Shown: piece after piece, positions 40,540-40,637 of the stretch
Layout: each line of letters starts with the position of its first letter
Numbering within the stretch: position 1 is the stretch's first letter
Source of the DNA: Pseudonocardia sp.
Lineage (GTDB): Bacteria > Actinomycetota > Actinomycetes > Mycobacteriales > Pseudonocardiaceae
DNA: 58,003 nt
NCBI GenBank assembly: GCA_030451825.1
Contig: JAKDNL010000002.1
Coordinates: 1-58,003, forward strand
Direction of reading: 5' to 3'
Notes under the pieces: generated by a model
Told to the model about the DNA's origin: nothing
The model's database searches: none
The model's input: the letters and a program-made list of their open reading frames with translations, nothing else
Translations under genes and position numbers: made by a program

Positions 40540-40581
40540 CTGGCAGTCAAGGGGTCAGGGGTTCGAATCCCCTCAGCTCCA
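40540..40581 (+). pseudogene. 3' part of tRNA-Ala(GGC), probable attachment site
   Basis: The sequence matches a tRNA from the anticodon loop to the discriminator base: loop CTGGCAG (anticodon GGC), TCAAG 3' anticodon strand, a T-arm AGGGG-TTCGAAT-CCCCT, acceptor 3' strand CAGCTCC and A73. The U at position 70 fits the G3-U70 identity pair of tRNA-Ala. The 5' half is absent: the bases before the loop do not pair, and a rough acceptor-like GGAGGCTG is 110 bp away. Integrases of genomic islands typically duplicate this 3' portion. The gap 40393-40710 holds only this and the hairpin after it. Confidence 0.7.
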
Positions 40582-40599
40582 CCCACTCTCATCAGCACA

Positions 40600-40637
40600 A
40601 ACGCCTGCCGAGTGATCCACTGGATCCGGCGGGCGTT
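40600..40637 (+). terminator. hairpin downstream of the tRNA remnant
   Basis: AACGCCTGCCG and CGGCGGGCGTT form an 11-bp stem with one mismatch around a 16-nt loop, 19 bp after the tRNA 3' end. It looks like the native tRNA terminator, which would place the original chromosome flank on this side. Confidence 0.5.

Follow-up and report, generated by a model that had tools for sequence, protein, structure and literature searches.

A short piece of a tRNA-Ala(GGC) gene lies beside a region of metabolic genes in a Pseudonocardia genome, and the question raised by this locus is whether the piece marks the end of an integrated element, on which side such an element would lie and where its other end is to be found. 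The window, by which we mean the whole stretch of 58,003 nucleotides that was analysed, is an entire contig (C183) of a host assembly in 968 contigs that is 94% complete and 8.3% contaminated. The reading that we strongly favour makes the piece the distal attachment site (attR) of an integrative element on its left, which probably carries metabolic cargo; the near end of this element would be on contig C266, its integrase would have been lost, and it would be one of at least two stacked elements. The island boundary is real and of an ordinary, already known type; less usual are the frequency with which tRNA-Ala is reused in the genus and the presence of three dissimilar integrases there. Pseudonocardia is known for pollutant degraders, and one end, the polarity and the integrase family are now fixed for an island that seemingly carries a degradation pathway.

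The tRNA fragment and its conserved arm

Alignment with the intact gene of the same assembly shows that the 43 bases at 40540-40582 equal the 3' part of tRNA-Ala(GGC) without a mismatch, namely the 42 bases from the anticodon loop to the discriminator base and one further base. The left edge is the first base of the anticodon loop (CTGGCAG), leftward of which the identity ends sharply. One genome therefore holds both an intact tRNA gene and a fragment identical to its 3' end, and the fragment starts at the anticodon loop, a known crossover subsite according to the Islander catalogue (PMC4383910). No whole tRNA was found in the window by ARAGORN, and the 5' half is absent left of the scar, where the best shift (up to 3) matches 13 of 32 positions, a value equalled at 972 of 2000 random window positions. 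The last 28 bases of the scar (up to 3 mismatches) occur at one place in the window, the chance expectation from 100 shuffles being 0.00. The claim of an earlier note on this DNA, that only the part from loop to discriminator base is present, is thereby borne out. The features at the junction are as follows.

40423..40539, plus strand: arm of the attachment site of a 'type B' integrative element, which shows the element to be on the left; conserved with the flanks of other scars
40438..40446, plus strand: direct repeat 1, GTGGTGCGA, probable arm-type integrase site; sequence repeat
40457..40465, plus strand: direct repeat 2, GTGGTGCGA, probable arm-type integrase site; sequence repeat
40540..40582, plus strand: tRNA-Ala(GGC) 3' fragment, attachment-site core; 43-base identity with the intact tRNA on contig C665
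40600..40637, plus strand: hairpin to the right of the scar, not followed by a T run; homologous sequence behind the intact tRNA in the relative G001

The side on which the element lies can be read from the arm. The 9-mer GTGGTGCGA has exactly two copies in the window, both within the 117-base arm left of the scar; for a pair so spaced the number expected in the window is 0.02. Arm and scar together (about 161 bp) are 86-89% identical to the same position at scars of P. pini (L127, L150, L161) and P. oroxyli (L158), 77% to P. hydrocarbonoxydans (L184) and 73% to strain KRD291 (L160), and the similarity with those loci disappears left of the arm. A 43-base arm pattern (up to 3 mismatches) was found at seven places in four of 62 genomes of the genus; the exceptions to its pairing with a core are an arm in G069 that no core adjoins and one on contig C47 of G067 whose adjoining core is degenerate. 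Repeats like those of the GTGGTGCGA arm also stand behind several intact tRNAs, ahead of genes for a family of integrases here named type B. Because the arm is conserved beside scars and similar repeats precede type-B integrases, the arm is assigned, by sequence comparison, to a type-B element, and the element to the left of the window scar. Compared with plasmids, the region of arm and scar gave five short matches, each limited to the scar and the bases directly behind it, and compared with phages it gave no match.

The hairpin is a poorer guide. The region 40583-40645 has a folding energy of -30.6 kcal/mol (z -4.3; none of 200 shuffles did as well), and no T run stands behind the hairpin at 40600-40637, so that the term 'terminator-like' used formerly fits only in part. 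Hairpins also follow the other two core copies of the assembly, with z -4.9 behind the intact tRNA of C665, on its integrase side, and z -4.7 behind the scar of C266 (a weaker one, z -2.0 with 9 of 200 shuffles as good, lies behind the tRNA of P. hydrocarbonoxydans), and for this reason the hairpin is no sign of native DNA. The earlier note had placed the element on the left on the ground that the native downstream hairpin is on the right; the side is upheld by the arm at 40423-40539, but the argument fails on the hairpins of C665 and C266. More generally, the presence of a hairpin behind a piece of a tRNA gene is not in itself evidence of native chromosome.

Core copies, integrases and an insertion sequence

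A 40-base core (up to 3 mismatches) is found at three places in the assembly, each of them mismatch-free, on the separate and unjoined contigs C665 (4134-4173), C266 (201-240) and C183, the window. The copies on C266 and in the window are partial, and that on C665 belongs to an intact tRNA-Ala(GGC), read by ARAGORN at 1500-1573 on the minus strand of locus L003, which corresponds to C665:4133-4206. The 3' end of this tRNA faces a tyrosine integrase of 386 residues (PF00589, 48.9 bits), beyond which lie a helix-turn-helix gene (HTH_17, 28.3 bits) and an ORF read as replication-like, for which there was no family match. C665 looks, from its gene order, like the native tRNA-Ala locus, because upstream of the tRNA it has a peptidase-like gene (its identity read by eye) whose relatives stand directly upstream of tRNA-Ala in four of six relatives compared (present in G001, G009, G017 and G022, not seen in G014, nor within 2 kb of the tRNA in G002). 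On the same contig, an IS605 OrfB/TnpB-like gene (L005, 5356-6675; 83.7 bits) lies between two pieces of the peptidase-like gene, which is whole in relatives.

An intact tRNA-Ala(GGC) with an identical ending had been predicted outside the window, together with a tyrosine integrase, and both are present on C665. The integrase nevertheless does not fit the arm: judged by similarity, it is of another lineage than that of the window arm. Three dissimilar integrases occur at tRNA-Ala(GGC), the C665 protein being 24.9% identical to type A over 389 residues and 31% to type B over 108 residues, and types A and B being 27% identical to each other. Open type-B integrases are found in P. terrae (L172) and in P. 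hydrocarbonoxydans (L099), where the protein has 426 residues and its gene starts 92 bases from the core, and those at L048, L127, L140, L152, L179, L183 and L188 were read as broken or shortened.

All that was found in the host assembly of the type-B integrase matching the arm is a stub of 16 codons on C266, truncated by the end of an insertion sequence (IS). Right of the C266 scar, type-B repeats are followed by an ORF that starts 92 bases from the core and begins MAGTTTRRGRQRGRIE, resembling the type-B start MTSTAPRRRARSKGRIEQL; it enters the repeat TACGGCAGCCGCACTT and stops soon after. These features occupy the 200 bases on one side of the scar; its other side carries an FtsK/TraB-like gene with matches below the cut-offs (PF01580, 22.4 bits against 24; TraB, 46.5 against 800). 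The inverse of TACGGCAGCCGCACTT is found at positions 40-55 of the window, which begins with the following feature.

1..59, no strand given: IS-like end at the contig start (terminal repeat 40-55, then ATAG); the 16-base repeat also occurs at C266:34-49 and flanks the IS701 element of contig C492

On C492 copies of the TACGGCAGCCGCACTT repeat enclose a transposase of the IS701 family (308 bits, cut-off 150), and CTGG is present on either side. The terminal repeat (up to 2 mismatches) occurs at four places in the assembly, namely the C492 pair, C266 and the window start, and the last two are the only unpaired IS ends. We lean towards the view that a single IS lies between C266 and the window, and that C266 would then be the near end of the window element. 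The four-base flanks of the two IS ends differ (CTAG on C266, ATAG in the window), and no remainder of the integrase was found at the window start, which would call for a deletion next to the IS; a further point against the link is that a single-copy IS alone should not break an assembly. The IS ends had no match among viral contigs, and among plasmids C266 gave short weak matches only and the window start none; no literature on IS701 target preference was found.

Several other candidates were considered. C266:1-53 was at one point taken for an integrase C-terminus and was dropped, as the same repeat occurs at the window start and around the IS701 element. The integrase contigs C384 and C314 showed no overlap with C266 among the loci compared and were rejected as its continuation. 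A pattern of type-B repeats and their spacing had no match in the own genome and was too strict. The only near-full type-B-like integrase that turned up in the assembly lies on C212, with 61% identity over residues 5-422. This tyrosine integrase (L195, 145-1935) has a GntR-type DNA-binding domain fused at its C-terminus (PF00589, 54.4 bits; PF00392, 38.4 bits) and adjoins a piece read as tRNA-Thr.

The earlier note saw no integrase within 1-40.5 kb, and this held true, as tblastn with eight integrases (E 0.01) gave no match in the window, and mobility families were likewise absent among the left-side ORFs searched (10 with NCBIfam, 24 with Pfam, part of them at E 1e-8). In the attR reading that we favour, a type-B tyrosine integrase would have carried out recombination between the attachment site of the element and the anticodon-loop segment of tRNA-Ala(GGC). 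At the near end the tRNA would have been made whole again by the incoming copy, and the former 3' piece would have ended up at the far end, next to the arm of the element. The near end may lie on C266, with its scar, its type-B repeats and 16 integrase codons cut by an IS end like that of the window, and the rest of the type-B integrase would have been lost. The loss of this integrase would leave the island incapable of moving by itself, and the island is probably immobilised. Another element with its own integrase, on C665, would now hold the intact tRNA, which implies at least two stacked elements. For a putative tandem array the assembly offers two fragments and an intact tRNA, with one full integrase and one stub, on contigs that are unjoined; arms common to C665 and C266 were sought, and only chance-level matches appeared. 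The single pair of boundaries envisaged in the earlier note is thus incomplete, since there are two scars (C266 and the window) and what lies to the right may be the margin of an earlier element.

Flanking genes and alternative readings

The two flanks of the scar, and a motif between the hairpin and the right-hand genes, were assigned as follows.

122..40392, no strand given: metabolic gene region, probable element cargo; family matches, with long matches to its 21-35 kb part in G045 only among 59 relatives
40643..40651, plus strand: GAGTGACTA, probably a half arm site for integrases of the family here named 'type A'; occurs once in the window
40711..57144, no strand given: right flank genes (cyclase-like to DUF3159), outside the assigned element; not syntenic in relatives

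The families on the left include oxidoreductases, cytochrome P450, acyl-CoA ligases, CoA-transferases, acyl-CoA dehydrogenases and enoyl-CoA hydratase, and further a thiolase-like protein, an ABC transporter and regulators. These family names suggest that the genes are probably catabolic and may form a degradation pathway. When 21-40.7 kb was compared with 59 relatives (60 genomes of the genus including the own, with few candidate places scored per genome), matches above 2 kb (83-84% identity, together most of 21-35 kb) were found only in G045, which is P. pini. This species also has three type-B arms, and its cluster contigs are separate from its arm contigs. G+C shows no left/right contrast at the scar, and such similarity neither supports nor excludes a foreign origin. 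The metabolic genes are probably carried by the left element, and the entry of 1-40.4 kb as one unit is a supposition.

On the right, GAGTGACTA follows the hairpin and stands at +62 behind the core. The exact motif occurs 51-75 bases behind the core in six of 72 stretches (L118, L123, L128, L147, L169, L177), as a tandem pair in three; among its carriers is MH-G8 (G011), where the tRNA adjoins an integrase 68% identical to the own type-A integrase of C211. In G001 the intact tRNA is directly followed by the window's right-hand hairpin sequence (91% identity over the 110 bp of window 40540-40649) and, behind this flank, by PadR and ABC-transporter genes; in the 76 kb downstream of that tRNA there was no integrase match and no second scar. 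Of the relative lacking the cluster that had been called for, G001 supplies the intact tRNA with the window's right flank, and it could be, from this arrangement, only the nearest thing to an unoccupied site. The right flank would be either a worn margin left by an earlier type-A element or the landing site in the state that preceded the arrival of the left element. For the genes at 40.7-57 kb, relatives lie at separate places in other genomes, and no single locus in relatives was found to be syntenic with the right flank, so that this side can be called native chromosome only tentatively. In G008 the cyclase gene is 7.6 kb from tRNA-Ala, on its downstream side; in other genomes that gene lies elsewhere. 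The cyclase-like (40711-41688) and HTH_67 (41777-42610) genes are neighbours here, and each is about 90% identical to copies in many Pseudonocardia, in which they are unlinked, for example in G068 and G022. DUF3159, at the right window end, was rejected as a core-gene anchor: the genome has several paralogues, the best one on another contig.

What exactly the scar bounds can be read in more than one way. We give roughly even chances to its being an internal junction of a longer stack, in which the left element borders directly on a decayed type-A element of greater age, at the near end of the latter, and 40.6-58 kb is also island; this adds to the attR explanation and is not opposed to it. The position of GAGTGACTA is the one at which type-A flanks carry the motif, G020 has a scar that is followed by a type-A-like flank and a type-A integrase remnant, and the scattering of the right-flank genes in relatives points the same way; yet only a half site is present, no integrase remnant lies right of the scar, and the same flank in G001, where no integrase was matched, could be an unoccupied site. 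We regard it as unlikely that the scar bounds only a small element and that the catabolic genes arrived otherwise, through other insertions or homologous exchange: among the ORFs searched, a mobility gene linking the cluster with the arm was not found, and the P. pini homologues are arranged differently, off the arm contigs, but the last cargo gene adjoins the arm (40392 against 40423) and 1-40.5 kb holds no second core copy. Pieces of tRNA genes can also arise in other ways, for instance in CRISPR arrays (PMC9897764). That chance or a duplication without integrase produced the present piece is nonetheless highly improbable: no support for it was found in these data, the boundary recurs, integrases lie beside intact copies in relatives, and the arm, conserved at this boundary in other species, practically refutes it. 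The original proposal of a scar left by a tRNA-using integrase is supported.

Reuse of tRNA-Ala(GGC) in the genus

The attR reading gains a wider frame from the other genomes, in which tRNA-Ala(GGC) is, by sequence comparison, a recurrent landing site in Pseudonocardia. Among the regions compared, own and relatives, 12 of 13 partial copies (up to 5 substitutions) start at the same loop base, the odd boundary being that of the G009 copy. The exact 42-base core was found in 72 stretches, 45 of them in records named Pseudonocardia (33 strains or bins); the other 27, from other genera or from bins without a genus name, were left out of the strain count. The intact tRNA is present in 32 of the 33, at least one partial copy in 11 and both in 10, counts that are lower bounds because matching was exact. 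P. pini has one intact and three partial exact copies. Fragments on the same contig lie downstream in the orientation of the tRNA (e.g., in G011, G015, G020 and G002), at distances from 1.1 kb (G015) to 282 kb (G002). The downstream genes of six relatives (12-76 kb each, with a simple choice of ORFs) contained one pair with at least 45% identity (G009/G014, 45.5%).

It is conceivable, though we hold it only tentatively, that the tRNA serves as a docking port shared by the genus, used by at least three distant integrase lineages with the same anticodon-loop crossover (that of the C665 lineage being inferred from C266) and bearing stacked elements, in which integrase loss, here by an IS, would strand cargo, scars could be reused and catabolic content would grow.

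Parallels exist among described systems. As in the islands of the Islander catalogue, an intact tRNA gene and a displaced 3' fragment serve as end marks; an island in that catalogue must contain its integrase and have its fragment and gene on the same replicon, whereas here the stub is on another contig and the contigs are unjoined. It lists 3919 islands, with 125 tandem arrays of at least two and four of at least three (PMC4383910). Actinomycete integrative and conjugative elements (AICEs) stand two in tandem at the tRNA-Lys of Frankia and at the tRNA-Arg of Streptomyces avermitilis, including cases in which the integrases belong to different subfamilies, and tRNA remnants have been suggested as possible integration sites (PMC3218068). 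The present elements would resemble these in being stacked at one actinobacterial tRNA gene; unlike them, they use tRNA-Ala(GGC) in Pseudonocardia, and no int, rep or tra gene was seen in the window element. The combination of int, rep and FtsK-like tra that characterises AICEs was not found among the left proteins searched; on the unjoined C665 and C266, int is present on C665, the tra-like matches on C266 stay below their cut-offs and the rep candidate is without a family match. The window element would share the carriage of degradation genes with integrative elements for aromatic degradation (PMC9960961), and differs in that no conjugation genes were found in the window. Literature joining Pseudonocardia, integrative and conjugative elements and tRNA was not found, and among the matches listed for Pseudonocardia genomic islands and integrase none is about the tRNA-Ala site, judged by title and start of the abstract.

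Further observations concern related loci. The type-A integrase of C211 (L112, 3218-4594) lies on a contig that ends in a 3' half read as tRNA-Pro(GGG), and this integrase family seems to use two tRNA genes, since relatives of the C211 protein adjoin tRNA-Ala(GGC) in G011 and G014. In G009, a 3' piece of tRNA-Ala that lacks the anticodon-loop part (L048, C1 at about 3932191) is found on the downstream side of the intact tRNA, at a distance of about 16 kb. In G002, the intact tRNA-Ala and an exact scar (L058/L059, C1 at 4282897 and 4001010) share their orientation and have similar hairpin flanks; 282 kb lie between them, and the interval is possibly a very large composite island.
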